From: Neptunitalea lumnitzerae
GTDB taxonomy: Bacteria > Bacteroidota > Bacteroidia > Flavobacteriales > Flavobacteriaceae
Length of the DNA stretch: 64,000 nucleotides
Direction: 5' to 3'
Assembly (NCBI RefSeq): GCF_027924185.1
Contig: NZ_BRVO01000001.1
Location: forward strand, 1,612,001-1,676,000
Made by a program: the position numbers and the translations under genes. Each line of letters starts with the position of its first letter. Positions within the stretch are counted from its first letter, which is position 1. This document shows positions 32,164 to 49,568 of this stretch, piece after piece. The notes beneath the pieces are model-generated. The model searched no databases. It saw nothing but the letters and a program-made list of their open reading frames with translations, and had not been told where the DNA came from.

Positions 32164-32237
32164 GGCTCCGTAGTTCAACTGGATAGAATATCAGATTTCG
32201 GCTCTGAGGGTTGGGGGTTCGAATCCCTCCGGGGTCA
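32164..32237 (+). tRNA. tRNA-Arg (anticodon UCG)
   Basis: A full cloverleaf can be drawn: acceptor GGCTCCG / CGGGGTC (with two G-U pairs), anticodon stem TCAGA / TCTGA with loop TTTCGGC giving anticodon TCG (reads CGN codons), and T-arm with TTCGAAT loop. The discriminator is A and CCA is not encoded, as is common in this phylum. It marks the left edge of the accessory island. Confidence 0.93.
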
Positions 32238-32270
32238 CAAAAGAGGCATCAATTTGATGCCTCTTTTGTG
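32238..32270 (+). terminator. Strong hairpin terminator after tRNA-Arg
   Basis: AAAGAGGCATC pairs perfectly with GATGCCTCTTT around a 5-nt loop AATTT, with flanking bases extending the stem to about 15 bp and reaching the tRNA 3' end. It is partly symmetrical and can stop transcription both ways. Confidence 0.85.
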
Positions 32271-32510
32271 TATTATAAATCCAACTAATTCTATATTTTC
32301 ACCTCTTTTTATTTGAATTTTTTACATATTTTCCGGAATTCATGGGAAAATTGAAATGAATTTGTTTTTTGATAACCTGGTTAAACCTATTAAAATCGTT
32401 GAGGTGATAAGATTCGAACCTTATTGTTCACAGATAGTACTAGGCTAATCAGGAAAGAACACACTTTCAAATGCGATAACATTTTACCAAATGCTTAATC
32501 TAATTTCTTA

Positions 32511-32528
32511 TTTTGCCAAATGACAAAT
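32511..32528. promoter_or_regulatory. Crp-family operator, copy 1 (upstream of the Crp gene)
   Basis: TTTTGCCAAATGACAAAT, an imperfect copy of the palindrome found again before the next gene. Its centre is 36.5 bp upstream of the last base of the -7 box TAAATTTG (32549-32556). That -7 box ends 4 bp before the ATG, so the transcript may be nearly leaderless. Confidence 0.6.
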
Positions 32529-32560
32529 AGATAACTAACCATGATTATTAAATTTGTAAA

Positions 32561-33121
32561 ATGGAAAAACTCATAGAATATATTTTACAATTTGGCAACC
32601 TCAATAAGCAGCAAATTGAACTGATTTCAAAAAATGCAGCGGAAACTCAACTTCATAAGGACCAATATTTTGCAGAAGCAGGCAAAACGTTTAATCGGGT
32701 AGCTTTTGTTTTGGAAGGCGTTCTGCGTATTTGCTATTACAACAACAAAGGCGAAGAAATAACAAAGTATTTTATAGAAGAAAACAACTTCGTAGCAAAT
32801 CCATACCAAAACGAACCGTTCACAGAATACATTCAGGCAGCTACAGATTGTAAATTGATTGTATTTTACCCACAACAGTGGAGCCAACTTTCCAATACAA
32901 TTTTAGAATGGGATACTATTATAAATAAGATATTTCATCATGCTTTAATGAAGAAAATGGATAGGAGAAGTTCCTTGGTTTCTGAAGATGCCACAACACG
33001 TTATCTCAAATTTATAGAAAAATTCCCAAGCCTTACCAATCGGGTCCCACTTTCTTATATCGCTTCCTATCTTGGCATTACACAATCTTCCTTGAGCAGG
33101 ATCAGAAAAAATATAGCATAA
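32561..33121 (+). CDS. Crp/Fnr family transcriptional regulator
   Basis: 186 residues: N-terminal cyclic-nucleotide-binding-like barrel (~20-115, AGKTFNRVAFVLEGVLRICYYNNKGEEITKYFIEENNF) and a C-terminal HTH (~150-185, PLSYIASYLGITQSSLSRIRK). No Cys cluster for an iron-sulfur centre. The barrel lacks the RxS cAMP motif, so the ligand is unknown. Operators before this gene and before the downstream aldo/keto reductase suggest it controls both. Confidence 0.92.
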   Translation: MEKLIEYILQFGNLNKQQIELISKNAAETQLHKDQYFAEAGKTFNRVAFVLEGVLRICYYNNKGEEITKYFIEENNFVANPYQNEPFTEYIQAATDCKLIVFYPQQWSQLSNTILEWDTIINKIFHHALMKKMDRRSSLVSEDATTRYLKFIEKFPSLTNRVPLSYIASYLGITQSSLSRIRKNIA

Positions 33122-33127
33122 ATCCTT

Positions 33128-33145
33128 TTTTGCCAAATGGCAAAA
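33128..33145. promoter_or_regulatory. Crp-family operator, copy 2 (upstream of the aldo/keto reductase gene)
   Basis: Perfect palindrome TTTTGCCAAATGGCAAAA just after the Crp gene. Its centre is again 36.5 bp upstream of the last base of the -7-like box CACCTTTG (33166-33173), the same geometry as copy 1 and close to the -41.5 position of class II Crp activation. Confidence 0.7.
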
Positions 33146-33198
33146 GACTTTTAGTAGGGTTGCTGCACCTTTGCTTTCATAATTGAAAAACAGAGAAA

Positions 33199-34080
33199 AT
33201 GAATATTAAAAAAACAATTACTATTGGTGCCAATACAGCAAATCCTCTAACAGTAAAACGATTGGGTTATGGGACAATGCGTCTTCCTGGTGAACAAGTT
33301 TGGGGCGAACCAGAAAACAGGGAAGAAGCATTGCAGATATTAAAAGCAACTTCTGAAGGTGGTATTAATTTTCTGGACACAGCCGATTATTACGGAGAAG
33401 ATGTAACCAACCGACTCATTGAAGAAGCCCTGTATCCTTATAAAAAAGACTTGGTCATTTGCACTAAAGTGGGTGCCAAGAGAGGTGCCGATAAAAGCTG
33501 GGGTGTTTACGACGAACCTGAAAATTTGCGAGCGAGTATTGACAATAATTTAAAGACCTTAAAAATTGAGAAAATTCCACTGGTACATTTTCGTGTTATG
33601 CCCGGAACTTCCACACCCTTTGAAGAATCGTTAAATGCCATGTTCGACATGCAAAAAGAGGGGAAAATTTTGAACGTTGGTGTAAGTAATGTAACCCCAG
33701 AAGAATTAACAACAGCATTATCTTTGGGGAATGTGGCAAGTGTTGAAAATGCATTTGGATACGGACAACGAACGAGTTTTTCAGTATTTGGTCAAGAAGT
33801 TAGGGGTATGCAAGAAGTAATGGGTATTTGTGTAGAAAATGATATTCCGATGATTCCTTTCTTTTCTTTGCAAAATTCTTTACCTAAAAACGAAAACAAA
33901 ATTGCTGAAATTGCAGAAAAATACAATGCCACACCTGCACAAATAAATTTAGCGTGGTTGTTACACTATAATGATTTGATTTTGCCTATTCCCGGAACTT
34001 CCAAGTTAGCTCATTTTAAGGAAAATATTCAAGCTTTTGATATTCAACTTTCAGAAGATGATATGAAGTTTTTGGGATAA
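33199..34080 (+). CDS. Aldo/keto reductase
   Basis: 293 residues, (beta/alpha)8 NADPH-dependent oxidoreductase. The catalytic tetrad is visible: Asp and Tyr in FLDTADYYGE, Lys in ICTKVG and His in LVHFRV. The C-terminal cofactor segment is ILPIPGTSKLAHFKENI. It probably reduces an aldehyde or ketone; the substrate is unknown. Regulated by the upstream Crp-type protein according to the shared operator. Confidence 0.92.
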   Translation: MNIKKTITIGANTANPLTVKRLGYGTMRLPGEQVWGEPENREEALQILKATSEGGINFLDTADYYGEDVTNRLIEEALYPYKKDLVICTKVGAKRGADKSWGVYDEPENLRASIDNNLKTLKIEKIPLVHFRVMPGTSTPFEESLNAMFDMQKEGKILNVGVSNVTPEELTTALSLGNVASVENAFGYGQRTSFSVFGQEVRGMQEVMGICVENDIPMIPFFSLQNSLPKNENKIAEIAEKYNATPAQINLAWLLHYNDLILPIPGTSKLAHFKENIQAFDIQLSEDDMKFLG

Positions 34081-34225
34081 TCCAATATATGGAAAAAGAG
34101 GGCTGTATAAAAGGAAATAATTTTAAGCATTTCTTTTTTACTCCTTTGGGGATACATTGAAAAAATTTTAATGCCTACCCGCAAAGATTTAGTTTTCTAT
34201 TATTTATTTCAAAAACCAAAACCTA

Positions 34226-34505
34226 TTATTTAAAACTTGTACGAAATTCCTGTGGGGTTTGATTTGTTTTAGACTTAAATAGCTTATTAAAGGATTGTGA
34301 ATGTTCAAACTCCAATTCAAAAGCATTTTTGCTAACGGAAAGCTGGTTAGTAGAAAGGTGTTCCTTAGCCCTTTCGATAAGTTTGAAATGAATGTATTGC
34401 AGAGCGCTTTACCCAATTATCCAATTATGGAGTGGAACATCGCTTAAATATCCAGCAGAAATATTGAGTTGATATGTCAGTCAGGAACTGTAGTGTTGGC
34501 TTCCT
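34226..34505 (-). pseudogene. AraC family regulator, C-terminal remnant (frameshifted)
   Basis: On the minus strand, YIHFKLIERAKEHLSTNQLS onward through FEHSQSFNKLFKSKTNQTPQEF, ending at the stop 34226-34228, is the second HTH of an AraC protein. Upstream, in other frames, fragments such as YLSDV and LNISAGYL continue the first HTH, so frameshifts have broken it; the N-terminal domain is gone. It resembles the end of the intact AraC gene at 36283-37194 (KLIEKAKEKLSTTDLTVTEVAYELGFEHSQAFSKLFKSKT), so the two are likely paralogues. Confidence 0.75.
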
Positions 34506-34582
34506 TTGTTGTAATGTTTGTTACTGAAATAAGTATCTAAAATAGCTTCAGCAGTAAAGGGGCAAAACGCATCTAAAGAGGA

Positions 34583-34713
34583 AATAAAGATGCAATTACC
34601 CCAAAACGATCTGATAAATAAGTGATTTGAATTTTTTCAAGCAGCCAATATATCAGCTAAAAGCTTTAAATCCTCTATTAATTGGTTCGAGTTTTGTACC
34701 ATATCGTTCACAG
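34583..34713 (-). repeat. Repeat element A: conserved gene tail plus 30-bp non-coding block
   Basis: 131 bp, near-identical to 45045-45186. On the minus strand it starts CTGTGAACGATATGG, reads VNDMVQNSNQLIEDLKLL...ADILAA and stops at TGA. Past the stop is a spacer and then 30 bp (34583-34612) identical to copy B. All codon differences from copy B are synonymous, and the stop codon differs (TGA against TAA). It reads as the last 24 codons of an unrecognised protein, or as a 21-residue peptide starting at the ATG. GGGG (34559-34562) can pair with CCCC near 34600, with GCATCT / AGATGC nested inside. Confidence 0.8.
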
Positions 34714-34717
34714 GAAT

Positions 34718-34757
34718 ATAAAAAGCCTTCAAAGTCATTGATTTTGGAGGCTTTTTT
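34718..34757 (+). terminator. Hairpin terminator next to repeat element A
   Basis: AAAAAGCCTTCAAA pairs with TTTTGGAGGCTTTTTT across an 8-nt loop. It lies right after the conserved end of repeat A. Copy B has a hairpin of different sequence at the same place. Confidence 0.75.
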
Positions 34758-34907
34758 GGTTCAATTTTTACCCCAAAAAAATTATTTTATCTTAAATTAC
34801 TGATTATCAGTGATTTTATGATTCGAATCCCAAAAGGTTAATTGGAAATGATCCAATCTATCTTATGAATGATACAATTTAATATGAATTCATGATACTT
34901 AAACTTG

Positions 34908-35717
34908 TTATCCTTTGCTAAATTTTAATTCATCAAAATACATTTTTTTAATTTCTTTTCTGGATGCTTCCGCACCGATTTCCATGCGTCTGTTATAAAT
35001 GGCTTGAGCACTTTTACCCGCAAAATAACGCAGTTTATCTTTGTTGTCTGTGGTAGCATCATAAATCACCTCTGCAATTTCTTCAGGCGTAGAAGATGGC
35101 TTCACCATACCTAACATTTTATCTTCAACAGCTTCGTAATATGGAAGCGGTTTTACATCGGAATTATGACTGAATAAATCCGTATTCGTAGCACTCGGCG
35201 AAACAGTTTTTACCCCCACACCAAACATTGATAATTCAATAGATAAACATTCGCTCCAACCTTCCACTGCCCATTTTGTGCCATTGTAAATACTTGTAAA
35301 CGGGAAGCCTGTATGTCCTCCAATGGAAGTTACATTAAGAAATAATCCTTTTTTGCTTTCCCTGAAATAAGGAATAAACGCTTGTGTCACCCGTACTGTT
35401 CCTAAAAAATTAGTATCTACTTGTCTCACGATGTTTTCATCGGTAAAGGCTTCAAGGGAACTCATTAAACCATAACCGGCATTGTTTAGGACTACATCAA
35501 TATCGGTTAATGAAATTGCCTTTTCTACTGTTTTTTTAATTTGTGAAAGGTTCGTTACATCCAAAGGCAAAAGGGTTACATTTTCTAGTTTCGTAAGTTC
35601 TGTTTCTTTCTCAGGGTTTCGCATGGTAGCAATTACGCTCCAACCTTTGGATTGAAATAATTTTGCCGTTGCTTTTCCGATGCCGGATGAAGCCCCTGTA
35701 ATGAATATTGTTTTCAT
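34908..35717 (-). CDS. Short-chain dehydrogenase/reductase
   Basis: 269 residues, classical SDR. Cofactor loop TGASSGIGKA (~6-15), NNAGYG (~87), Ser in NVTSIGG and the catalytic YNGTK (YxxxK, ~152). No signal peptide. Transcribed away from an HxlR-type regulator with 83 bp between the starts, where repeated operator-like motifs lie, so it is likely the target of that regulator. Substrate unknown. Confidence 0.93.
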   Translation of the reverse strand: MKTIFITGASSGIGKATAKLFQSKGWSVIATMRNPEKETELTKLENVTLLPLDVTNLSQIKKTVEKAISLTDIDVVLNNAGYGLMSSLEAFTDENIVRQVDTNFLGTVRVTQAFIPYFRESKKGLFLNVTSIGGHTGFPFTSIYNGTKWAVEGWSECLSIELSMFGVGVKTVSPSATNTDLFSHNSDVKPLPYYEAVEDKMLGMVKPSSTPEEIAEVIYDATTDNKDKLRYFAGKSAQAIYNRRMEIGAEASRKEIKKMYFDELKFSKG

Positions 35718-35758
35718 TTTACTTTATTTTTTGATTACAATGTAAAAGTAAAAGCAAA

Positions 35759-35795
35759 AAGTATATATTTGATACTTGTATACAAAAGGATACTT
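35759..35795. promoter_or_regulatory. Candidate HxlR operator between divergent SDR and HxlR genes
   Basis: AAGTAT (35759-35764) and ATACTT (35772-35777) form a perfect inverted repeat. GATACTT occurs twice as a direct repeat, at 35771 and 35789, 18 bp apart, with the palindrome GTATAC between them. The regulator -7 box TATATTTG (35764-35771) is inside the motif, as expected for repression. Confidence 0.6.
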
Positions 35796-35800
35796 AATTA

Positions 35801-36142
35801 ATGACAAAGGAAGAAAAACGGTTTCAGGAAAAAATAAAGTCCATACAAGACACTATGTTTGTTATTGGCGGAAAATGGAAAATACCCATTATCCTGTCTG
35901 TTTACAGCGGTAACAAGCGGTTTAACGAGATTTCAAATTCCATTCCGAAAATCACCAACCGTGTTTTGTCCAAAGAATTAAAGCATTTGGAAGAAAACCT
36001 ATTGATTACAAGGAATGTAATTGAAGATTATCCTGTTAGGATTGAGTATGCTGTAACAGATTATGGCCTCGGGTTGGAAGAAATCGCGAAACCTCTGGAA
36101 AGTTGGGGCAAAAAACACAAGAAAAAAATCATCGGAAAATAG
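35801..36142 (+). CDS. HxlR family transcriptional regulator
   Basis: 113 residues, MarR-like winged helix. The family pattern VIGGKWKIPIILSVYSGNKRFNEISNSIPKITNRVLSKELKHLEENLLI is complete, followed by the wing VRIEYAVTDYGLGL. Unlike redox/aldehyde-sensing HxlR members it contains no cysteine, so it is not thiol-based. Divergent from the SDR gene. Confidence 0.92.
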   Translation: MTKEEKRFQEKIKSIQDTMFVIGGKWKIPIILSVYSGNKRFNEISNSIPKITNRVLSKELKHLEENLLITRNVIEDYPVRIEYAVTDYGLGLEEIAKPLESWGKKHKKKIIGK

Positions 36143-36282
36143 CTGTTGCTACTACAGCCCTTATGAATGGCGTTTGTTTTTTAATTATTGGGTGAATTAA
36201 ACTCTGTAACCCAATACTATTCTTATATCGGTCATCACTAAGATTTAGTATGCATATTACTTTTGGAGATAGGTTTTTACAA

Positions 36283-37194
36283 TCAGTTAAAAGAATTCCT
36301 AAACTCTAATGGGGTTAATTTGGTTTTTGATTTAAACAATTTACTGAAGGCCTGAGAATGTTCAAACCCTAATTCATAAGCAACCTCAGTAACTGTTAAA
36401 TCGGTTGTAGAAAGTTTTTCTTTAGCTTTTTCAATGAGTTTTTTATGAATGATTTGTTGGGTGGTTTGTCCGGTCAGTGATTTTAGCAGGTTGCTCAAAT
36501 ATCCTGGTGACACATGTAAGCTGTCTGCTACAAATTGTACACTAGGTAACCCCTTCCTAATTAAGCTATCGGACGAAAAATAATCAGCGAGCAGTATCTC
36601 CATTTGTTCAAAAAGGTGATGATTCCCTTTTTTACGGGTAATGAACATGCGGTTATAGAAACGTTCCGAGTAATTCAGCAAAGTTTCTAACTGCGAAACA
36701 ATAATATTTTGGCTAAAAGGGTCAATTCGTTCATTGTATTCTTTTTCTATGGTTTTTACGATTTGCTCCAATTCCTGTTCCTCGTCTTCAGATAAAAACA
36801 AGGCTTCGTTGGTGGTATAATTCCAAAAATCATACTGATTGATTTTTGTTGCTAAAGGAGTACTCCATAGAAAATCCGGATGAACAAGTAACATCCATCC
36901 GGAAGGGGTATGATTATTTTCTTCAATGTGAAGCCCGAATACCTGATTCGGGGCTACAAAAAATAGTATTCCCTCATCAAAATCATACTCCTTTTGTCCG
37001 TATCGGAACTTTGAATTCATATCGCGTTTCAGGGCAATCATGAAATAGCCGAATAAATAGCGGTGGTCGCCGGCTTCGGCCCCTTGAAATTGCTCATTAA
37101 ACCTGATTAAACTAATCATAGGGTGTTTGGGAGCTGGCAAGCCACGCAGCCGATGATATTCTGATATGGTTTTGATGTTTTTTGGAGTATTCAT
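36283..37194 (-). CDS. AraC family transcriptional regulator
   Basis: 303 residues: N-terminal cupin-like domain (~25-110) and C-terminal double HTH (~200-300, FVADSLHVSPGYLSNLLKSLTG and VTEVAYELGFEHSQAFSKLFKSKT). It starts 3 bp after the stop of the atypical SDR gene, so the two form one transcript and the regulator probably controls that enzyme. The pseudogene at 34226-34505 is a close relative. Confidence 0.92.
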   Translation of the reverse strand: MNTPKNIKTISEYHRLRGLPAPKHPMISLIRFNEQFQGAEAGDHRYLFGYFMIALKRDMNSKFRYGQKEYDFDEGILFFVAPNQVFGLHIEENNHTPSGWMLLVHPDFLWSTPLATKINQYDFWNYTTNEALFLSEDEEQELEQIVKTIEKEYNERIDPFSQNIIVSQLETLLNYSERFYNRMFITRKKGNHHLFEQMEILLADYFSSDSLIRKGLPSVQFVADSLHVSPGYLSNLLKSLTGQTTQQIIHKKLIEKAKEKLSTTDLTVTEVAYELGFEHSQAFSKLFKSKTKLTPLEFRNSFN

Positions 37195-37197
37195 ACT

Positions 37198-38088
37198 TTA
37201 AAAATACACATTATTCTCAATGTCCTTAAAAAGAGTAGGGTGAATTGGTTGCCAGCCCAGACTTTTTTGTGTTTGTTTGCTGTCAATAGGAATATTAAGG
37301 GAGGCGAAATGGAAAAAGCCCCCAAAATAATCAGTAGCTTCTTCTTTCGTTAGGGAAACTAAAGGAAGGTTCATTTTTTTACTTAGAAGACCTGTGAGGT
37401 CTTTTAAAAAGATTTGAGATTCTGCAACAGCATGATATCTTGTTCCGGGAGCATCCTTTTTTTGCATGGCTAATCGGTAAACGGGGGCTGCATCTAGTCG
37501 ATTTACGGCCGCCCAGGCATTCATACCGTCTTCTATGTAAGCCAATTTACCTTTAGATTTTGCTAGGTTTACTAGGGTAGGAACAAATCCATGTGTATCT
37601 CCGTAGCCATGAACCGATGGAGGTAAACGGACTACAGAAATATTAAGGTTTTGTGCAGTAAGCTCATCCGCTACTTGTTCCGAAACATAACGTGGAATTT
37701 GCTTGTTTTTACCCCTGTCATTTTCGTTTACCAAGTTTCCGGTAGCTATAGCCCCGGCTGCTCCAGTGATTACTAACGGCCGGTTACTGCCTTTTAAAAC
37801 GTTGCCCATTGCCAAAACGGCTGCACGTTCCTCTTCACATGATTTCTGAAAACGTGTAAAGTCATGATTAAAAGCAGTGTGAATGACTCCATCTGAGTTT
37901 TCTACTGCCGCTTCTAAACTTGCTACATCCGTAATGTCGCCCAGATGTACTTCAGCTCCCATTTCCAGGATTTTTTTTGCAGAAGACTCAGAGCGGGCCA
38001 ATCCCAATACTTCATACCCATTTTCTAAAAGGTCTTTTACGACTGCTGAACCAACAAATCCGCTAGCTCCGGTTACAAATATTTTCAT
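37198..38088 (-). CDS. NAD-dependent epimerase/dehydratase-like atypical SDR
   Basis: 296 residues, extended-type Rossmann fold with TGASGFVGSAVVKDLL at the N-terminus. In place of YxxxK there is YVSEQ, so the catalytic Lys is absent; related proteins commonly have an SE motif there, so this looks like a family trait rather than damage. VVRLPPSVHGYGDTHGF and AAVNRLDAAPVYRLAM are typical of this group. Reaction unknown. First gene of a two-gene operon with the AraC regulator. Confidence 0.88.
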   Translation of the reverse strand: MKIFVTGASGFVGSAVVKDLLENGYEVLGLARSESSAKKILEMGAEVHLGDITDVASLEAAVENSDGVIHTAFNHDFTRFQKSCEEERAAVLAMGNVLKGSNRPLVITGAAGAIATGNLVNENDRGKNKQIPRYVSEQVADELTAQNLNISVVRLPPSVHGYGDTHGFVPTLVNLAKSKGKLAYIEDGMNAWAAVNRLDAAPVYRLAMQKKDAPGTRYHAVAESQIFLKDLTGLLSKKMNLPLVSLTKEEATDYFGGFFHFASLNIPIDSKQTQKSLGWQPIHPTLFKDIENNVYF

Positions 38089-38196
38089 TTTAAATAATTT
38101 TTAGTAAAGTTCTTAGATTCAAAATTCAATAAAATAAAGCGTTTCATTGTATCCAAAACCTATGTTATTGTATCCAAAAATTGTTACAGCAATATA

Positions 38197-39000
38197 TTAT
38201 TGGGAACCGTTCTTTTTGTTTTTTTTCGCCAGTTCGGTGGGCGTCGTATCAAATAGTTTTTTAAAAGCAAATGAAAAATGTTGTAAGGTTTCAAACCCCA
38301 GTTCCAGATAAATATCAGAGGGTTTTTGATGTTTTTTTTCAATCAGGAAATGTGCTTCCTGAAGTCTTTTTTTTACCAACCAGCGGCTGGGTGTGTCGTT
38401 AAATGTTTCTTTGAAGTCACGTTTAAATGCTGATAAGCTCCTTCCTGTCAGGTAAGCAAAACGCTCAACACTTACATTGAATTTGAAATTTCGGTTCATA
38501 AATTCCTCAATGTTGATTTTTTCGGGAATTCCATAATCAAAGAGCAATCCTGACAATTGAGGTTGTGATTGTAATAAAATCAATAACAATTCCTCTCGCT
38601 TTAAATCAGTAAAAGGTTCTGCGATGATCAGGCGATGATAGTGAGGGAGTAAGGATTGAATAAAGGCTGGCAGCAAATCATTTTTAGCAATGCGATTGAG
38701 GGTTTCTGTTGAGTTGTATTCGCTTATCTCAGGTTTATATTTTTCCTGAAAGCGCTTCAGAAAGGCTTCGTCAAAGAACACAAAAACTTTTTCCAGTTCA
38801 CCATCTACTTTTTCCTTATTGTAGCGCGCCAACCTGTTCTTTCGGGCAATGAGTGCATCGCCGGACTTTAGCACATCATGTCTACTTCCATCATACGTGT
38901 GCATCAATCCTTTGATAATGTAAACAAAGGTATGCTCCGCAATAAATTGCTGTGGGGAAATCTCTTTGCCTACATGGTGCATGTGTGAGGTGTCCTTCAT
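38197..39000 (-). CDS. AraC family transcriptional regulator
   Basis: 267 residues: N-terminal sensing domain (AEHTFVYIIKGLMHTYDGSRHDVLKSGDALIARKN) and C-terminal HTHs (FAYLTGRSLSAFKRDFKETFNDTPSRW, LELGFETLQHFSFAFKKLFDTTPTELAKK). The start overlaps the stop of the lipoprotein gene by 4 bp (ATGA), so it is translationally coupled to it. Likely controls the SDR-lipoprotein-araC operon. Confidence 0.92.
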   Translation of the reverse strand: MKDTSHMHHVGKEISPQQFIAEHTFVYIIKGLMHTYDGSRHDVLKSGDALIARKNRLARYNKEKVDGELEKVFVFFDEAFLKRFQEKYKPEISEYNSTETLNRIAKNDLLPAFIQSLLPHYHRLIIAEPFTDLKREELLLILLQSQPQLSGLLFDYGIPEKINIEEFMNRNFKFNVSVERFAYLTGRSLSAFKRDFKETFNDTPSRWLVKKRLQEAHFLIEKKHQKPSDIYLELGFETLQHFSFAFKKLFDTTPTELAKKNKKNGSQ

Positions 39001-39398
39001 AGTTTATTCAGTTCATTTATTTTTACGATAAGTTCAGGAATTAAAATTCCACGACCAATTGGCATGTTTTGAGGCAAGCTAAAAATCTCAGCGCTTCCAT
39101 CCTTCTTCACTTGCATATTTTCTAAAACCATTTTTAAGTTTTCTTCATCGTTTTTATTCCACCTACCTGTACCAAAAGTAATGGTAATATACCCTGGTTC
39201 GATGCGTTTTCCGTTGAGCGAATCGAGAAATGCACCCTGCATGGTTCCTTCTTTAATCTTGAAGGTACTGTTAATCTTTAATGTAATAGTCTGCTCAGTT
39301 TTATTGCTAATGTAAATCCTTTTATTCATGGTGCAAGAGGTTATTAATAGAGTAATTATACCAATGAAAATTTTCTGAAATGTTTGTCTCAAAGTCAT
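38997..39398 (-). CDS. Small lipoprotein of unknown family
   Basis: 133 residues. A lipoprotein signal with lipobox LLITSC (Cys ~22) precedes a small beta-rich domain with NKTEQTITLKINSTFKIKEG and PGYITITFGTGRWN. I do not recognise the family. It sits in the middle of an SDR-lipoprotein-AraC operon, 11 bp after the SDR gene and with an ATGA overlap to the regulator. An envelope protein between a cytosolic enzyme and a regulator is unusual. Confidence 0.75.
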   Translation of the reverse strand: MTLRQTFQKIFIGIITLLITSCTMNKRIYISNKTEQTITLKINSTFKIKEGTMQGAFLDSLNGKRIEPGYITITFGTGRWNKNDEENLKMVLENMQVKKDGSAEIFSLPQNMPIGRGILIPELIVKINELNKL

Positions 39399-39409
39399 TA
39401 TTCAAATTT

Positions 39410-40183
39410 TTAAAGGGCTTTTGTTTTTGCTTTTTCAATATTTTTATTAATTAACTTAGTAAAGAAGTTTGGTGCAATCCTGCTCATCCACTTCATTAGA
39501 TTTGATAATCCGGGCCTGATTTCATACTGATCTTTTAAAATTCCCTTGATGGAAACCCGAACCATATCGCTCATTTTCATCATTCCCCTTTTACTGGTTT
39601 CGGGAATAGCCGTTTGCAAAGGCTTGTCCGTTTTAGGGGGAGCAACCTCAAATACCTTTACCGAGGTGTTTTTAAGTTGAAGCCGTAGTCCCTGAGAGTA
39701 AATGTGAACGCCTGCTTTAGTACCGCAATAGATGGGGGAGGTGGTAAAAGGAATAAAACCTAAACCGGAAGTTATATTCACAATAGCGGAAGATTTCTTT
39801 GTTATCAGATGTGGTAGAAATTGTTGAATCATACGCACAGTTCCTGAGAAGTTGGTTTCAATTTCATCGGTGATATTCTCTAAATCGGTGGATGGATCAA
39901 GTAATGCTACACTCCGCATAACTCCTGCATTATTGACAATGATATTCAATTCAGGAAATTGCTCCGTTACTTTTTTGTAAAGTGCTTCTATATCTTTGGG
40001 CTTATTGATATCACTTTGAAAAGTGACAATTTCGGGGAATTGTTCCTTGGTGCGATCCAATTTATTCTGATCTCTTCCGGTCACCATTACTTTGGCACCC
40101 TGCTTCAAAAACTGTTTGGCAAACTCTAACCCGATGCCATTGCTTCCACCAGTGATTAAAATAGTACTCTCTTTTATATTCAT
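39410..40183 (-). CDS. Short-chain dehydrogenase/reductase
   Basis: 257 residues, DltE-like classical SDR. TGGSNGIGLEFA (~12-23), NNAGVMRS (~87), Ser in VNITSGLGF and the catalytic YCGTK (~152). The C-terminal MKWMSRIAPNFFTKLINKNIEKAK is basic and may associate with membrane lipids. First gene of the three-gene operon ending in an AraC regulator. Confidence 0.92.
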   Translation of the reverse strand: MNIKESTILITGGSNGIGLEFAKQFLKQGAKVMVTGRDQNKLDRTKEQFPEIVTFQSDINKPKDIEALYKKVTEQFPELNIIVNNAGVMRSVALLDPSTDLENITDEIETNFSGTVRMIQQFLPHLITKKSSAIVNITSGLGFIPFTTSPIYCGTKAGVHIYSQGLRLQLKNTSVKVFEVAPPKTDKPLQTAIPETSKRGMMKMSDMVRVSIKGILKDQYEIRPGLSNLMKWMSRIAPNFFTKLINKNIEKAKTKAL

Positions 40184-40301
40184 TTTTTATTTTTTATTCG
40201 GGACAACTAATTTTATAATAATACCCCAATATTTTTTAAGTGCCGTGGCTATTATGGCAACAACTATAACTATCATACTCAAAAGTTTTCTTCATTTTTA
40301 A

Positions 40302-42740
40302 TTACAATTCTATCCTTACTCCAAAAGTTGGGAAAATACCAAAACCTATATTGTATACTTTACCAGTATTAGGTAAAAAAACCTCTGTGTTTATATTAAA
40401 TCTATCAGCCACATTGACTATATCTACAAAGGCAGAAAGGATCCCCCAATTGGTGAGCATATTATAATCAGCTCTAAGATCTATACTTACAAAATTAGGA
40501 AAGCGCTCTCCATTTATACTTGTTATTTCTTGTGCAAATCTTAATTCATCAGAATCATTAAGTACATTGGAATGTACTACGTATTGATCTGTTGGTCTAC
40601 CTGTACTATAGCGAAACTTTCCTGAAAAAATCCATTTATCATTAGGTTTATAACTTCCCATAAGGCTAATAGTATGTGGAATATTAAAATTATCGTCATA
40701 CCTCCCCAACCCATAATGATCATTACGTTTACTTTGCATGTAGGAATAACTTATCTGACCATAATAATTTTTAGAGAGTCTTTTGGTCATACTAATATCT
40801 GATCCATAAGCATAACCACCTCCGTTGTTTGTGAAATAACTTTGAAATTGATTGGGTTGTACGACCAAATCATTAAAATGCTTATACCAACCCTCTATTA
40901 CCAATTTTAAATCGTTTGATAACTGTAATTTATATCCTAAAATGGATTGTATAGACTTCTCATTTTTCAATTTTCCATTTAAGGATTGTCCTGCGAGATT
41001 CGCATAAGCCACATCTTGATAATATACACCTGTAGCAAAATTTATACTGTTTTTTTGACTTAGTTGGATACTCCCGCTTAATCTTGGAGAAATGCTATGT
41101 TGGTTTGTAAAACCAGTATAATCATATCGAATTCCAGGATTTAGTGTTAGTAATTTAAAAGTATTCCAAGACAGTGTAATATAACCTGAACTATTAAACC
41201 CGGTTTTGTTAAAATGAGCATTGTAATTTATTGGATTTAATACTTGAAAATACTGAGATGGATTCTCTAACTCACCAGAACGGAAAGTATACAACGTATC
41301 GATACTCTTTAAATTTCTTTTATAATCAAGATGAATTGTTGAAGCATCTATACCGGCTGTTAGAGACAACCTATTAAAACGTTTGGTATAGATTGCCCGA
41401 TATCCTATTTCATTCTGATCATTTTTAATTGATCTCAAATCTTTATCATATCTCCCAGCATTCACATTAATAATAACCCCATGGTCATCTAAAGCCGGAG
41501 TAAACCGACCAAAGTGATTATCTACTTTAGAAGACCTATAGTACAGTACATTTTTTAAATAGCTATCAGAATTAAGTAAGGTTCTTAAATTAATCCCCAA
41601 GAGCAACTTATTACCACGATGATCGTATAAAGTAGTACCTCCACTATTATCATCGTTAATATTAGTTCCTATTTCAACGTCATCAATAGTTCTCACAGGA
41701 CGCTCCGGATTATACATGGCGACTAAGGAGAGTTTATTTTTAGGATTCAATTGAGTAGTTGTTTTTACAATATAATCTCCGTATGAAATAGAAGCCTTTT
41801 GTTCTCCTAATAGATTAATAAGGAGTCCGAAATTTTGATATCTTCCGGAAGCAAACATACTAGTTTTAGAAGAAACAGGACCATCTGCAATTACGGTAGC
41901 TCCTAACAAATCAAATTGACCACTAAAAGACCAACTCTCTCTATTCCCTTCCTTTATATTCAACCCTAAATATGAAGAAGATCTTCTTCCGTATAAAGCA
42001 CTAAATCCTCCGTTTTGAAACTGTACATTATCTATCACTCTTGGTGCAAAAATACTGAACCTTCCCCCATTAGGATCATTAAAACCAGAATTAAAACCTT
42101 CCGCTTCCAGATGAGAAAGTTCCAGCATTGGGATATCATCAACCATATAAACATTATCTCGTGTACCTTGTCCTCTTGCAGCAATAGCTGAAAACTGAGA
42201 ACCACTACTTACTACTCCCGGTAAAGTAGCGAGTGCACGCATAATATCGCCCTGTGCACCAGGACTTCGATAAATTTCTTCTCTTGCATAAGAAAAAGAG
42301 GATACTGGAGTGGCAGGATTATTTTCATTTCTATATGCACGAATTGTCACCTCATTTAAAGAAGATGTTTCCTCTAGCAGTTCTATTTCTGCATAATATG
42401 TTTTATTTACTGAGATCAACACATCATTTATTTTCTTAGTTTGAAAACCTAAGTACGAGAGGCTTATGGTATACATTCCAGCAGGAATATTATTTATTAC
42501 ACCATAACCCAAAGTATCGGAGACCGTTCCTAGAGTAGTATTTTCAAGATGTATATTTACTCCTAGGAGCGGTTGTTTGGTAGTCTCATCAACAACCTTA
42601 ATTTTACAGCTACCGACTGTTTGCGCCACTCCCAAAAAACTTAACATACCACACAAGGCTGTTGCTATTAGTTTTTTAAAATTGTAATATCTTGTAGTAC
42701 AATTTTTTGCTGTAATTAAAACTTTTCCCTTTTTTTCCAT
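40302..42740 (-). CDS. TonB-dependent receptor with carboxypeptidase-regulatory-like domain
   Basis: About 812 residues from the ATG at 42740; an ATG at 42770 would add ten residues. After a signal region (KKLIATALCGMLSFLGVAQT) comes a carboxypeptidase-D-like fold (VVDETTKQPLLGVNIHLENT, ~55-135), a plug domain (RALATLPGVVSSGSQFSAIAARGQGTRDNVYMVDDIPM) and a long beta-barrel ending FPTFGVRIEL. No SusD partner is next to it, so it is not a classical polysaccharide locus; substrate unknown. Within the accessory island. Confidence 0.9.
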   Translation of the reverse strand: MEKKGKVLITAKNCTTRYYNFKKLIATALCGMLSFLGVAQTVGSCKIKVVDETTKQPLLGVNIHLENTTLGTVSDTLGYGVINNIPAGMYTISLSYLGFQTKKINDVLISVNKTYYAEIELLEETSSLNEVTIRAYRNENNPATPVSSFSYAREEIYRSPGAQGDIMRALATLPGVVSSGSQFSAIAARGQGTRDNVYMVDDIPMLELSHLEAEGFNSGFNDPNGGRFSIFAPRVIDNVQFQNGGFSALYGRRSSSYLGLNIKEGNRESWSFSGQFDLLGATVIADGPVSSKTSMFASGRYQNFGLLINLLGEQKASISYGDYIVKTTTQLNPKNKLSLVAMYNPERPVRTIDDVEIGTNINDDNSGGTTLYDHRGNKLLLGINLRTLLNSDSYLKNVLYYRSSKVDNHFGRFTPALDDHGVIINVNAGRYDKDLRSIKNDQNEIGYRAIYTKRFNRLSLTAGIDASTIHLDYKRNLKSIDTLYTFRSGELENPSQYFQVLNPINYNAHFNKTGFNSSGYITLSWNTFKLLTLNPGIRYDYTGFTNQHSISPRLSGSIQLSQKNSINFATGVYYQDVAYANLAGQSLNGKLKNEKSIQSILGYKLQLSNDLKLVIEGWYKHFNDLVVQPNQFQSYFTNNGGGYAYGSDISMTKRLSKNYYGQISYSYMQSKRNDHYGLGRYDDNFNIPHTISLMGSYKPNDKWIFSGKFRYSTGRPTDQYVVHSNVLNDSDELRFAQEITSINGERFPNFVSIDLRADYNMLTNWGILSAFVDIVNVADRFNINTEVFLPNTGKVYNIGFGIFPTFGVRIEL

Positions 42741-43170
42741 GCACCAAAATTTTATAAAGCAAAACTGCAAAAAGAAATTACATGCTATTTACCTGTAAAG
42801 GTCAAGTTTATTTATCTCAAAAGTTCAGCATAACTACTATTACTGAAACCTGAGGAAGAAACATAATTATACAATTACATCATATTTTGTATTTTAAGGC
42901 AGAGCTCTTATAGTTAAGATATTTTTTAACAACTACATATTCATTTATTTTAAAGGAATTTAAAGTTGGCAATATGGCTCACAACGGGATCATGAATTTA
43001 GTGATAATGCATATGTTTATTAAGAGATAACACCTCTCACTTCAATAAATATTTTGCTAAATAAGCAGTTCTAGTTAGGGGAAGTTTATACGATCAAATT
43101 ATTAATGGACTAAATGAACACGGCTTCGACTGTCAAGAATTCCTCAATCGAAAAAGAAAATAATGAAACT
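42741..43170. other. Non-coding stretch with remnants of gene 3' ends
   Basis: Two short open tails on the + strand look like former gene ends: WQYGSQRDHEFSDNAYVY ending at a TAA at about 43023, and SLYDQIINGLNEHGFDCQEF... ending at a TAA at about 43164. Neither has a start or RBS. The rest is AT-rich without recognisable structure. Confidence 0.45.
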
Positions 43171-43531
43171 TTATAAGTAAAATTCAATTCTAATATTGCT
43201 TGGATCGTTGAGCCAGATTTTTTCCTTTTTTACTTGAATCATCGATATGAATACCACTATTTTTTATTCCTTTTTCTTTTAAGATTTTTTCTATTCCTTC
43301 CAATTCCGATAGATTTTTAAGTCCAAATGCAATGGGGTCAAGACCAATAGTTGAAGAGTCAAATTTAGAATGCGATATTTTTTCTTTTTCTATAAAAATC
43401 AACATCGTTTGCCCTACTTGATATATTGCTGTATTTGAATTGGTATAAAGCGCTTGACCAAATATTTTGGTGTAAAACTTTTCTGTTTCGGCTACATCTA
43501 AAATCGTAAAAACAATATGGTGGATGGTCAT
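43171..43531 (-). pseudogene. VOC (glyoxalase/bleomycin-resistance) family protein, frameshifted near the 3' end
   Basis: From the ATG at 43531, MTIHHIVFTILDVAETEKFYTKIFG begins a VOC half-barrel with the metal-binding His at HHIVF. Near 43220 an A-rich run throws the frame: the present frame ends at 43190 as KGKNLAQRSKQY, whereas the +1 frame reads EKIWLNDPSNIRIEFYL and stops at 43171-43173, matching the normal VOC ending with its metal-binding Glu. One added or lost base explains it. Could also be a sequencing error in a homopolymer. Confidence 0.75.
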
Positions 43532-43603
43532 ATTTACTTTAATAGCTTCAGGTATCATTTTATGCATTAAATAAACTTATTGGGGAGAATCATTATAGTG
43601 TGA

Positions 43604-44563
43604 TTATTGCACACCAGCTAATAAATCGTGAGGATAACCTAATGATATATTGCTTAAATTATCTAATCTAGTAATCTGCTCTTTGGTTAATTGAAGGGTT
43701 GTCGTATGAAAAGAATCTTCAAAATGAGAAAGTTTACGGGCACCCATTAAAGGAAAGACGTTTTTTGATAATACCCAGGCAAACGCAACTTGTCCGGCAG
43801 TAGCATTTATTTCTTTTGCTATAACAACAAGTTCATCAATGATTGTTTTTGTTCTGTCATCTTCTGTATATTCAGAATCACTTCCTAAATTTAAACGCCC
43901 GGACGCTCCATTTCTGTATTTTCCGGTTAACAGTCCACCAGCTAATGGAGAATAAGTCATCGTTCCCAAACCAAATTCTTCTGCCATAGGAAGAAACTCT
44001 CGGTCTGCCGTTCGCTGCAATAAATTGTATTCTATTTGCAATGCGGTTACATTTGTCAGGCTTGCAATGGATGCAACTTTCCAAGCAGGAAAATTAGTTA
44101 AACCGGTATATAGAACTTTCCCTTCTTTTACCAAATCTTCTAAACCCCTTATAATTTCTTCCATAGGAGTTGCGCCATCATCAAAATGAGGCATATAAAT
44201 ATCAATATAATTGGTTTTTAATCGCTTTAAACTTGCTTCCACAGCCTGTTTCATCGATTTACGGTGATTTCCATAATTGCTTTTGGCAGGATTAATTTCA
44301 CTACTTTTTGTATACTTTATACAGATAATAAAATTATTTCGTTGGTTTTTCAGAAAGTCACCAACTATTTCTTCCGCTTCCCCAAATTGATACAAATCAG
44401 ATATATCAATAAAATTTCCTCCTGCATCTGCATAAGCAGAAAGTATTTTTTTAGATTCCTTTGGTGTAGCACCGTACCCTTTTCTGGTTCCAAAGTTCGC
44501 AGCCTCTAATATAACTTCGCTTGCATATAAGCCTGTATTAGAGCCAAATAATTTATACTTCAT
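43604..44563 (-). CDS. Aldo/keto reductase
   Basis: 319 residues. Catalytic residues: Asp and Tyr in FIDISDLYQFGEAEE, Lys in ICIKYT and His in YMPHFDD; the cofactor segment FPLMGARKLSHFEDSF is near the end. The sequence resembles the AKR group with potassium-channel beta subunits. Divergent from an HxlR regulator with a clear palindrome between them, so probably controlled by it. Only distantly similar to the other aldo/keto reductase of the island. Confidence 0.92.
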   Translation of the reverse strand: MKYKLFGSNTGLYASEVILEAANFGTRKGYGATPKESKKILSAYADAGGNFIDISDLYQFGEAEEIVGDFLKNQRNNFIICIKYTKSSEINPAKSNYGNHRKSMKQAVEASLKRLKTNYIDIYMPHFDDGATPMEEIIRGLEDLVKEGKVLYTGLTNFPAWKVASIASLTNVTALQIEYNLLQRTADREFLPMAEEFGLGTMTYSPLAGGLLTGKYRNGASGRLNLGSDSEYTEDDRTKTIIDELVVIAKEINATAGQVAFAWVLSKNVFPLMGARKLSHFEDSFHTTTLQLTKEQITRLDNLSNISLGYPHDLLAGVQ

Positions 44564-44614
44564 AGTGATTGTTTTATTGTCACAAAATTACAATCCTTAA
44601 ACACGAGGGTCAAG

Positions 44615-44634
44615 TACGGATAAATTTGTCCGTA
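44615..44634. promoter_or_regulatory. Candidate HxlR operator between the aldo/keto reductase and HxlR genes
   Basis: TACGGATAAATTTGTCCGTA: six-bp perfect outer arms (TACGGA / TCCGTA) with further pairing inside. It is 37 bp before the regulator start and 52 bp before the divergent reductase start. TTATATTTG, a -7 candidate for the regulator, follows at about 44644. Confidence 0.7.
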
Positions 44635-44670
44635 TTATAATTGTTATATTTGATTGTTAATTGATTTGAT

Positions 44671-45018
44671 ATGTACGAAAGAAAAACACCTGTAACCATA
44701 GATTGCGGCCTTCATTTATTTATGGAAGTAATGAACGGTAAATGGAAGATAAATTTAGTTTGGTGTGTGTATAATGAAATAAAAAGACCAGGTGAATTAC
44801 GAAGAAAAATACCAAATGCTACAAGGCGGGTACTGGAGGGACAGTTAAAACAATTAGTTAATCACGGTATCCTTTCAAATAAATCTTATGATGTAAAACC
44901 TCCTAAAGTTGAATATAGTTTGACTGAATTGGGAGAATCATTAATTCCAATCATTAGGTCAACAGCAAAATGGGGAGAAGAAAATAGAGAAAAATTGGAA
45001 AAATTAATATTGGAATAA
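44671..45018 (+). CDS. HxlR family transcriptional regulator
   Basis: 115 residues, winged-helix. LFMEVMNGKWKINLVWCVYNEIKRPGELRRKIPNATRRVLEGQLKQLVNHGIL is the family core; VKPPKVEYSLTELGESLIPII is the wing. It has Cys residues at ~12 and ~31 (DCGLHL, WCVY), so a thiol-based response to electrophiles or quinones, as known for some relatives (YodB/HypR type), is possible but unproven. Divergent from the aldo/keto reductase. Confidence 0.92.
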   Translation: MYERKTPVTIDCGLHLFMEVMNGKWKINLVWCVYNEIKRPGELRRKIPNATRRVLEGQLKQLVNHGILSNKSYDVKPPKVEYSLTELGESLIPIIRSTAKWGEENREKLEKLILE

Positions 45019-45044
45019 AAAATGCCGATGTCTGCTATTGGGGC

Positions 45045-45186
45045 AATAAAGATGCAATTACCCCAAAACGATCTATTTAACCATTGGTAAATAAGTGATT
45101 TGATTTTTTTTAAGCAGCCAGTATATCAGCCAAAAGCTTTAAATCTTCGATTAATTGGTTGGAGTTTTGTACCATATCGTTCACAG
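45045..45186 (-). repeat. Repeat element B: conserved gene tail plus 30-bp non-coding block
   Basis: 142 bp, the second copy of the element at 34583-34713, same orientation. The minus strand encodes the same 24-residue tail (VNDMVQNSNQLIEDLKLL...) but with five synonymous codon changes and stop TAA. The 30 bp at 45045-45074 are identical to copy A; the adjoining spacer is 11 bp longer. The conserved part begins in both copies at CTGTGAAC, beside a terminator hairpin. GGGGCAAT / ATTACCCC can form a small hairpin at 45041-45065. Confidence 0.8.
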
Positions 45187-45221
45187 AAAAGCATCTAATT
45201 TTTATAGTTAGGTGCTTTTTT
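45187..45221 (+). terminator. Hairpin terminator next to repeat element B
   Basis: AAAAGCATCTAA pairs with TTAGGTGCTTTT (one G-U pair), followed by T residues. It would end the HxlR transcript, leaving repeat B in the 3' untranslated region. Confidence 0.75.
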
Positions 45222-45318
45222 ATTTGAAATAATATCTTCTTACATTTACTATTCATGTTTTGGAATACTTTGGTTATTTCAAAGATGCTATTGGTTTGGC
45301 TATTTAATTTATTAAAAC

Positions 45319-46995
45319 ATGAAGTACACTTTTTCCTTTATATTCTTGTTGTTGGTTTTACCGCTTTCAAGTAAAACATTGTCGCTAAATGCAATATCTG
45401 ATAGCAATATACTTACCTATAAAAAAGCTGGCCTAATCTGGGGGTTTCTAAAATACAATCATCCTACTATTAGTTCTGGGAAATATAATTGGGATGATGA
45501 ATTTGTTAGATTGTTTGCCACCCTAAAGGGAGCTGATAATGATACTGATGCAGAAACTGTACTATTAAATTTTGTTAATCAATTTGATAATAAAAATATA
45601 CCAGATGGAGAGGATGTGATAAACTCTAATTATCAATGGATGAGTTCTTATTTTACTAATAGTAATTTAAAGAATACTATTTATAGAATTAGTCAAAGTA
45701 AGCGAAAGAATGATTATTATGCTAAAATTGATAACCTAAACTATCTTAGTTTTTCTAATGAAGAACCATTTAAGAATTTTGATGTAACAGAAGCTTCACA
45801 TCGTCTGCTATTGTTTTTTAAGTTTTGGAATGCCATTCAGTACTGGGATGTAAATAAGGAGTTTGTTAAGCATGATTGGTTAAGTATTTTAGATACTTAT
45901 ATCTTAGATTTTTTAATGGCTAATACGAGTTATGAATTTGAACTAGTTAAAAGCAGATTGATAGCTGAATTAAATGATTCTCATTCCAGTTATTTTTCAA
46001 AACAAGTGTTTGACAAGGATTTTAAATTTAAACCTAGTTTTGGAGTTGTATACGTAAATGATTCCTTAGTAGTGAATTATATCTATGACAAAGCTAGTTG
46101 TATTAATAATAACGTTAAAATTGGTGATATTATAACCAAAATAAACGGGGAGTCTATTAAGGATGGTTTGCAAAAAAGATTAGCTCATCTTATTTCTGCA
46201 TCCAATTTCAATTTTTTAACTCGGTTTTCTTATTATTTGTTATGTCAAGAAACTAATAAGGTTAGTGTAACTATTGTTAGAAATGGTTTAGTGGTAGTAC
46301 AGGAAATAAATTTATTAGAGGATATAAGTTATAATGATTCTTATACAATAGAAGGTAAACATGCTACTATAGAAAAATTGGGAGTGAATGATTTTTATGT
46401 TGATTTGTCTAAATTATCAAGTAAAGGATGTGATTCTTTTTTTAAAGCACAGAAAAAATTAGGTATTGGAAATTTAATCTTAGACTTAAGGAGGAACAAC
46501 AACCTTCATTTGAATACAAATAAACTTTGTAATTATCTAATTACAGAAGAAAGAGAGTTTGTGAAAGTAATTGGTCCAGTGAAGAACAATCCTTTAGAGT
46601 CAGATTTTGTTAGTGGAGGTGGTATAGCTAGTTTGGTAGTATCTCCCTTCGTTGTTGGAAAAAAATCTAATTCACAGTTAGTGTCGGGTAAAATTGTTCT
46701 GTTAATAAATAGAAATACCCAAAGTAGAGGTGAGTATTTAGCATTAGCTTTGCAACAAGCTAATAATTGTATTACAGTAGGTAATCAAACAGCAGGTTCA
46801 CCTATGAATATAACCACTTTAGTGCTTCCTGATGGATCTAGTTTTAATTTTACTTCATTTAAAGCGTTATATCCTGTTTCAAATAAAAGTGTTCAACAAC
46901 ATGGAGTTAAAGTAGATGTTGTGGTAGATGTGAAGGCTAGAAACTACTCACCCGATCAGTATTTAGAAGTAGCTAAGGAGGTTATAAACCAATAA
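45319..46995 (+). CDS. Secreted S41 family peptidase (tail-specific-protease-like)
   Basis: 558 residues with a signal peptide (MKYTFSFIFLLLVLPLSS). A helical N-terminal domain (KAGLIWGFLKYNHPTISSGKYNWDDEFV) is typical of flavobacterial S41 proteins. A PDZ-like segment is near 250-280 (NNVKIGDIITKINGESI) and the protease core near 380-530: INRNTQSRGEYLALALQQ places Ser and Glu in the S-x-x-E arrangement, with GNQTAGSP following. Probably a periplasmic or surface serine protease; target unknown. First gene right of the island. Confidence 0.88.
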   Translation: MKYTFSFIFLLLVLPLSSKTLSLNAISDSNILTYKKAGLIWGFLKYNHPTISSGKYNWDDEFVRLFATLKGADNDTDAETVLLNFVNQFDNKNIPDGEDVINSNYQWMSSYFTNSNLKNTIYRISQSKRKNDYYAKIDNLNYLSFSNEEPFKNFDVTEASHRLLLFFKFWNAIQYWDVNKEFVKHDWLSILDTYILDFLMANTSYEFELVKSRLIAELNDSHSSYFSKQVFDKDFKFKPSFGVVYVNDSLVVNYIYDKASCINNNVKIGDIITKINGESIKDGLQKRLAHLISASNFNFLTRFSYYLLCQETNKVSVTIVRNGLVVVQEINLLEDISYNDSYTIEGKHATIEKLGVNDFYVDLSKLSSKGCDSFFKAQKKLGIGNLILDLRRNNNLHLNTNKLCNYLITEEREFVKVIGPVKNNPLESDFVSGGGIASLVVSPFVVGKKSNSQLVSGKIVLLINRNTQSRGEYLALALQQANNCITVGNQTAGSPMNITTLVLPDGSSFNFTSFKALYPVSNKSVQQHGVKVDVVVDVKARNYSPDQYLEVAKEVINQ

Positions 46996-47038
46996 ATAGT
47001 TCAACTATTTCAGTATTATACTATCGTAATCTAGCATA

Positions 47039-48079
47039 TCAAAATGTACTCACCAATTTTTCAATTTCATCAATAGAAGGGTTAATAGATAAGATGGTTC
47101 CGTTTTCATCTAAAACGTAGGTATAAGGAATGCCTATAGCGCCTAGTTGATTATATATGGTTTTTTGGGAGTCAAGTAAATTGGTCCAAGTTAATTTGTC
47201 TTTTTTAATGGCTTCTTTCCAAAGTTTTGTGTCTTCATCTATAGAGATACTTACAATGTCAAAATTCGGGTTTTGTACGCGTTCTTTAAGAGCTACATAT
47301 TTAGGGTTAGCTTTTCTGCAAGGCACACAGTAAGACGCCCAAAAGTCTACCAGTGTTATTTTACCATGATTATAGGTTATGGCAATAGTATCGTTTTGGG
47401 TATTGGGTAAAGCAAATTCTAAAAAAGATTTTCCTCTAGAGAATTTATCTAAGTTAGCAATGCCTCTTTTAAATACATATAAATCGTTATTACTTTGTTT
47501 GGTAGTATCTAGTTTAGCATAAAGTTTTAGTAATTGTTGCTTAGTTAGCACCGGATTTAAAAAAGAGCAACTTGCCAAAATAGCACCAGAAAATGGGTGT
47601 GTGGGATGTGTCGTTGTTAGGGTATCTAGTTTTTTGTAAAGTAAATCAGGAAAGTTTTGGTTGCTTTCATGTTTTTTGTAAAAGGCATAAAAGTCTTGCT
47701 CTATAGTATAAGATTTAGAACCTTCTATATTGGTAATTGTTATAAACGGGTATGAACCCTCTTTATAGTCTTTGTGATCATAATCAGTGGTAAGGGTTAA
47801 GTGGCTATTTTCTACGTAGAAGAACGCCTGCTCACTCCCAGATTTTAAACTTAAATGTCCGTCCTTAGTATAGGGTACTTTCCCTGTAAAGTGAAATGTA
47901 TTCTCTTTAACCAAAACACTATCAACTGTATCTGCATAGGTTAGGTAAATATAACCTTCAAATGGAGTAGCTAAAGTCCCAGTAATTTCAAATTGGTTGT
48001 TGGTAACCTCTTCTTTTTTAGTATTTTGATTACAAGCACACAACATGCCTGCAAAAATTATAGCAAATATTTTTTTCAT
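47039..48079 (-). CDS. TlpA-like thioredoxin lipoprotein with DUF4369 domain
   Basis: 346 residues. Lipoprotein signal MKKIFAIIFAGMLCAC; DUF4369-type beta domain (~28-130, FEITGTLATPFEGYIYLTYADTVDSVLV), a helical linker and a C-terminal thioredoxin fold with the redox motif CVPC in DFWASYCVPCRKANP and the cis-Pro in IGIPYTYVLDENG. Such proteins reduce disulfides or assist cytochrome c maturation in the Bacteroidota envelope. Not in an obvious operon. Confidence 0.92.
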   Translation of the reverse strand: MKKIFAIIFAGMLCACNQNTKKEEVTNNQFEITGTLATPFEGYIYLTYADTVDSVLVKENTFHFTGKVPYTKDGHLSLKSGSEQAFFYVENSHLTLTTDYDHKDYKEGSYPFITITNIEGSKSYTIEQDFYAFYKKHESNQNFPDLLYKKLDTLTTTHPTHPFSGAILASCSFLNPVLTKQQLLKLYAKLDTTKQSNNDLYVFKRGIANLDKFSRGKSFLEFALPNTQNDTIAITYNHGKITLVDFWASYCVPCRKANPKYVALKERVQNPNFDIVSISIDEDTKLWKEAIKKDKLTWTNLLDSQKTIYNQLGAIGIPYTYVLDENGTILSINPSIDEIEKLVSTF

Positions 48080-48169
48080 TTCTACCAGCTTATAAGTTTC
48101 TACAATGTAAGTAAAATATTTAACAGTGTCGTAAGATAATATATCTGTTTAAAGGCTTAGTGCTTTAGT

Positions 48170-48298
48170 TACAATACCCAAACTTCAACATCCGTAAAAT
48201 GGAGGTTTATTTGCTGTAGTAAATCAAAGTTTTTATTAGAGTTGATACCTGCCTCTAAAACAATATTTGAAGTAAAGGGTTTTAAGCCAACGGTTAAT
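48170..48298 (-). pseudogene. Possible 3' remnant of a lost gene
   Basis: The minus strand has an open frame of ~42 codons without a start, reading LKPFTSNIVLEAGINSNKNFDLLQQINLHF and ending VEVWVL before a TAA at about 48170. Codon use looks coding. It begins immediately after the stop of the deacylase-family gene upstream. It may be a degraded gene end; I do not recognise the protein. Confidence 0.35.
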
Positions 48299-48305
48299 TT
48301 TGAAT

Positions 48306-49343: not shown

Positions 49344-49467
49344 TTTCTTTTATTTTTTATGAGATATTTACTCGATACTGTAAATTAAGTGTTTTGTTGA
49401 CTTACCTCTAAGACAACTGCTTTTATAGTTAGTGTATCTGTCATGGAAGTTGTTTTTGAGCTTACTG

Positions 49468-49499: not shown

Positions 49500-49568
49500 C
49501 TTAATAAAACATGAAATATTAAAACAGACCAATAATATTTGTTGTTATAAGATGTATTGAGTAGGGTA

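Follow-up and report, generated by a model that had tools for sequence, protein, structure and literature searches.

The accretion of CIMEs, ICEs and IMEs at the 3′ ends of tRNA genes produces tandem stacks of integrase-less cargo with att-like ends, partly beside the tRNA genes themselves (PMC7563491). Chromosomal integrons and CALINs hold many unrelated, one-orientation cargo units that are split by a repeated recombination site; complete integrons are reported to be very rare in Bacteroidetes (PMC9024848). Islands that encode a tyrosine integrase are joined to a tRNA 3′ end and can carry a tRNA-end-like repeat and a terminator at their far end (Islander, PMC4383910). The locus described here is alike to all of these systems in the respects just named. 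Few integrons are recognised in Bacteroidia, and yet cargo is shuffled there between genera at one exact base.

The window, the whole 64,000-nucleotide stretch of Neptunitalea lumnitzerae DNA that was analysed, contains two repeats of 131 and 142 bp (34583-34713 and 45045-45186), for which the original prediction had suggested the right end of a mobile element or a cassette recombination site. The repeats are real: they lie on the same strand, are 86% identical (E 1e-44) and are the only two of their kind, with no further good match in their own genome. BLAST extends the homology by 3 bp on each side, and in functional terms the elements end with the final C of ..GTTCAC (34711/45184), without the extra CT. 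As predicted, both contain a minus-strand frame of 24 codons, which differs between them by five synonymous changes (TCG/TCC, ATA/ATC, GAG/GAA, TTA/TTG and TTG/CTG) plus the TGA/TAA stops, both contain an identical 30-bp block, and in both the homology starts at CTGTGAAC, beyond which unrelated hairpins follow. The frames open with GTG at 34711 and 45184; an ATG at codon 4, which yields the 21-mer here, is absent from most relatives. The repeats, designated RE1 and RE2, are probably right ends of units in a head-to-tail stack of small non-autonomous integrative cassettes that lies downstream of tRNA-Arg (Table 1).

Table 1. Coordinates of features in the window (RE, right-end element; LE, left end)
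Feature	Coordinates	Strand	Remarks
tRNA-Arg(tcg), end ..CCTCCGGGGTCAC	32164..32238	+	variable region begins here
Variable region downstream of tRNA-Arg	32239..54294		22 kb
Block: aldo-keto reductase end, AraC remnant, RE1	33964..34703	+	97% identical in Zunongwangia atlantica
Right-end element RE1	34583..34711	+	R1 66.4 bits at 34648-34711; + order: cargo, RE, ..GTTCAC, junction, next left end
30-bp identical outer block of RE1	34583..34612	+	
24-codon selected frame in RE1	34637..34711	-	VNDMVQNSNQLIEDLKLLADILAA plus TGA
LE of unit after RE1	34712..34760	+	intrinsic terminator directly past junction
Cargo between RE1 and RE2	34908..45018		SDRs, AraC and HxlR regulators, epimerase-like, TonB-type receptor, aldo-keto reductase
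Block: aldo-keto reductase (-), HxlR regulator (+), RE2	43584..45183	+	also in G322, another genus, 92% identity
Right-end element RE2	45045..45184	+	R1 61.0 bits at 45121-45184
30-bp identical outer block of RE2	45045..45074	+	
24-codon selected frame in RE2	45110..45184	-	plus TAA
LE/terminator after RE2	45185..45225	+	unrelated to LE after RE1

Searches placed RE1 and RE2 in a family of right-end elements (RE) present across Flavobacteriaceae and other Bacteroidia. DNA searches recovered copies in two genomes of one other genus (G322 and G119) and in Zunongwangia atlantica, which also holds the one exact match to the 30-bp block outside the own genome. A seed alignment (A2) and a DNA model (R1) found strong matches in further genera, and a peptide profile (A4) matched in several families of the class. 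Weak single R1 matches, seen in roughly 90 genomes at E about 0.001-0.01, are for the most part probably due to chance and were left out of all counts. With the window copy as query, no RE was detectable in plasmid (tblastn, blastn) or phage (tblastn) collections. The repeats are not a transposase fragment: the peptide has no Pfam or NCBIfam match, and in the PDB it matched designed helices only, and those weakly. Rfam recognised tRNA-Arg alone in the window at gathering threshold, leaving the repeats unmatched. A structured RNA or 3′UTR motif was considered and rejected: the hairpin CAAATC..GATTTG, spotted by eye, has no consensus support, and RNAalifold on 21 RE returned 0 pairs and no consensus fold. 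No description of the family was found in the open-access literature that was searched, and it is apparently undescribed.

In the + orientation, the reverse complement of the tail as originally read, 56 of 62 RE end in ..[C/T]AC, a count taken after snapping each junction to CAC or TAC within 5 nt, so that the junction bases are partly set by this step. A hairpin plus T-run follows 56/62 RE, as against 30% in shuffles. These left ends (LE) form families that recur after different RE, and nearly all of their pairwise homologies begin no more than a few bases from the ..AC end. For example, the LE after RE1 is 92% alike over 36 nt to that behind an RE of G466, from a different family. In G152 (L139), a single unit start is found after two RE types (5781; 6692/7604), and two different unit starts are found after one RE type. 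Because LE families are shared and their homology begins at the junction, the terminator belongs to the next unit, and the hairpins beside the two window repeats are therefore unrelated in sequence. Thus, the fixed breakpoint proposed from the window alone is recurrent, with related terminator-bearing LE joined at the same base, just past ..[C/T]AC.

Arrays of such junctions follow a strict polarity. Neighbouring RE within 40 kb have the same orientation in 27/27 cases, spread over 10 genomes (13 best genomes and class sample), and the largest array (G342:C12) spans 96 kb and comprises 12 RE, all in one orientation. The cargo between array RE is unrelated, ranging from HxlR/SDR/quinone-reductase sets and an efflux operon to patatin and metallo-beta-lactamase-type genes and Crp/AhpD-type pairs (functions judged by eye unless Pfam is named). 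Other loci carry AbiEi/AbiEii-type pairs or a RES-domain module, and a three-gene defence-like block that is 96% identical in two genera terminates at an RE. This block (L065 3538-6694 / L141 9580-6425), one gene of which has a RES/HEPN-type domain, lies in both genera between an RE and the 3′ end of a different rteC gene. Pairs of RE about 155 bp apart (L140 8612-8828, L139 5627-5839, L131 11438-11623, L129 16101-16305) consist of a junction plus an RE without cargo and resemble empty minimal units. At L139 5781-7664, a 912-bp unit occurs as a tandem duplication with 97% identity across 1045 bp, and each copy is bounded by RE.

Family, arrays and recurrent junction together support the predicted conserved right end or cassette-type recombination site. 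A transposing MITE or REP-like element that lands preferentially just upstream of intrinsic terminators would account for the dispersed single copies, for several decayed copies and for the fact that most copies adjoin terminators. Such an element is nonetheless highly unlikely: neither the uniform array orientation nor the one-base sharing of LE among RE types is expected of it, and the window unit has a TIR identity of 0.50, compared with a shuffle mean of 0.46, and no obvious target duplication.

The array layout is also what would be seen if the RE were the attC analogue of a dedicated IntI/XerA-type integrase, the arrays themselves being integrase-less (CALIN-like). In L235 (G426:C22), an XerA/integron-type integrase indeed lies 180 bp from an RE (NF040815 220.3 bits; TIGR02249 206 bits, below the cut-off of 265; IntI4 among the best solved relatives), and a broken relative shares a contig with an RE in G322. 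However, these are only two of about 50 loci, and the closest intact relatives of the integrase (G419, Chryseobacterium plasmids) have no RE nearby. Furthermore, the RYYYAAC..GTTRRRY pair occurs in 0/62 RE, and the RE set that was folded has no consensus structure; GTTRRRY alone lies within 12 nt of the junction in 5/62. We regard an integron-like system as clearly unlikely. No intI was seen in the window or in the array loci read, and none of the five integrase matches in the own genome is near the window. As a candidate RE enzyme, the IntI/XerA integrase was downgraded, being linked at two loci only, and the L235 protein is treated as a lead because its relatives occur without RE. On the Chryseobacterium plasmids (L255 9161-9331, 16706-16864; L256), palindromic repeats GGCCAGCTCGGCTT..AAGCCGAGCTGGCCGTTATACGA and cargo lie behind an IntI/XerA-like integrase, an arrangement that may represent another integron-like cassette system.

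The original prediction that the tail is selected as protein is borne out family-wide, and purifying selection on the frame is well supported. None of the 37 elements analysed has a stop in the tail frame, whose third positions are higher in entropy; its BLOSUM z-score against column permutation is 4.2, and the best of the other frames reaches 2.5. In five groups, pooled pN/pS amounts to 0.08-0.33. The elements G083 and G466, which come from G119 and a genome in another family, retain L-N-Q-L-K, with two Leu codons each changed at two positions. The antisense was rejected as the coding frame: its pN/pS is nearly as low in four of five groups, but it contains stops in two groups and fails in G342. 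Strong as the coding signal is, the repeat is extremely improbable as the mere tail of duplicated protein genes or as a free-standing 21-residue gene. The full-length homologous genes from which the tails had been proposed to come did not materialise in any of 13 + 395 genomes searched with the peptide profile, and the open frame around every confident match spans at most 83 aa (408 genome searches). Moreover, many copies have no start codon, because the frame opens with GTA or directly follows an in-frame TGA. The first codons of the frame vary along with the tRNA-like end. The RteC C-terminus, considered as a source of the tail since one mobile block has rteC genes at its flanks in two genera, gave a negative profile score. 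The selected frame is apparently unexpressed. It is conceivable, if rather improbable, that the RE belong to a cassette-capture system analogous to integrons yet distinct from them, in which the right site lies inside a coding frame. Recombination at ..AC would then link the conserved peptide end to the sequence across the junction and so complete or break a protein, which might for example be whole only while the unit is circular or within an autonomous parent element.

Further evidence comes from tRNA genes. In G205, the 66 nt that follow tRNA-Arg(acg) match those after an RE of the same array at 92% identity, from base 1 on, and in G031 a tRNA-Leu bears an LE type found after RE in G426/G427; both are tRNA junctions with an LE of the family. 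In L079, tRNA-Arg(cct) and an RE 1.6 kb downstream share the eight-base end GAGGCTAC and enclose an AbiEii-type nucleotidyltransferase gene pair. In the window, the variable region starts directly behind tRNA-Arg(tcg), and a control genome (G008) has on the orthologous tRNA-Arg(tcg) a tyrosine-integrase island whose far end, 16 kb off, bears a terminator and a 13-bp repeat CTCCCGCGGTCAC. Because of these cases, few as they are, tRNA 3′ ends and RE appear to be interchangeable as junctions. Since related LE join both different RE types and tRNA 3′ ends, the unit is read as LE-cargo-RE, stacked through RE/LE junctions. The G008 island (L212 76-16332; G008:C6) contains ribonucleotide-reductase-like genes. 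Across the family, about 4/45 RE loci lie at most 12 kb downstream of a same-orientation tRNA, a proportion that does not clearly exceed chance. In the window, the RE end GTTCAC agrees with the local tRNA-Arg end GGGGTCAC in TCAC only, and there is no further copy of that tRNA end and no second CCTCCGGGGTCAC-type copy. A displaced fragment of the tRNA 3′ end is present in G008 and partly present in L079 (8 nt). A tRNA with a ..TTCAC end was rejected as the target of the window RE, the pattern search of the own genome being not above its reversed control.

In a congener (G001), about 6 kb of unrelated DNA take the place of the variable region between conserved flanks, and the 34.7-45.1 kb segment is thus missing there, as the original prediction had proposed to check in other strains. 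The sequence behind tRNA-Arg(tcg) is different in all four genomes compared. Two direct RE flank the cargo, and a Pfam scan of the cargo found no integrase and no conjugation gene in the window units. Homology to Z. atlantica and to G322 ends at, or a few bases from, the same repeat end. The G322 counterpart of the RE2 block (L022 7219-5621) stops at the RE junction, and its left limit is not an RE/LE junction; the Z. atlantica block is limited on the left by the end of that genome's contig and on the right at a position inside the RE. The ten kb bracketed by the repeats need not form one mobile unit, as only 43584-45183 is shared as a block with another genome. The AraC-family regulator remnant (34204-34560), common to Z. 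atlantica, is a C-terminal half with in-frame stops; an intact relative adjoins an RE in L024 5678-6598. Further along the window, tandem related DUF4625 genes (49569-50835) include a DNA repeat that is 70% identical (50068-50280 / 50395-50607).

The lack of an integrase in the arrays examined, an ordinary island at the orthologous tRNA in G008 and the commonness of CIMEs in other phyla (PMC7563491) would suit true CIMEs, that is, inactive remnants of tRNA-targeted ICEs/IMEs whose likeness is kept only by homologous exchange. We consider this possible but rather unlikely, as the RE are conserved across families with a frame under selection, the units are short with clean LE and RE, and near-identical units occur in different genera.

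For the stacked non-autonomous cassettes that we favour instead, the following mechanism is proposed. Each unit would start with a terminator-bearing LE and finish with an RE whose last bases, ..[C/T]AC, resemble the 3′ end of a tRNA gene. A putative circular intermediate would insert by site-specific recombination at the ..AC base behind a tRNA or a pre-existing RE, which would create RE/LE junctions and same-orientation arrays. Insertion may depend on a tyrosine recombinase working in trans, with the tRNA 3′ end as the presumed primary target, and the LE terminator could provide transcriptional insulation. No recombinase was seen in the arrays read, and none is tied to the RE family.

The cargo that is shuffled between genera includes type-IV toxin-antitoxin pairs, RES-domain modules, efflux operons and oxidoreductase/regulator pairs. 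With the R1 (DNA) and A4 (protein) profiles, arrays can be found in any genome, which would delimit accessory and defence cargo. A selected, apparently unexpressed frame within a recombination site poses a testable puzzle.

Tycheposons, too, are cargo elements associated with tRNA genes, and the RE units are like them in this respect. Overall, the system is best filed as a variant of the tandem accretion of integrase-less islands (CIMEs, PMC7563491). Unlike the CIME/ICE/IME accretions described, RE arrays reach 12 RE per contig and have a conserved right end with a protein-selected frame, and no parental ICE or IME was identified. In contrast to integrons and CALINs, the RE are not attC-like in sequence or fold, the units are often larger (0.9-35 kb) and the integrase is not linked. 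Whereas Islander-type islands encode their integrase, RE units carry none; the RE merely resembles a tRNA end, and it accepts further units. New here, relative to these systems, are the RE family itself, the role of the RE in receiving additional units and the frame under selection inside it.
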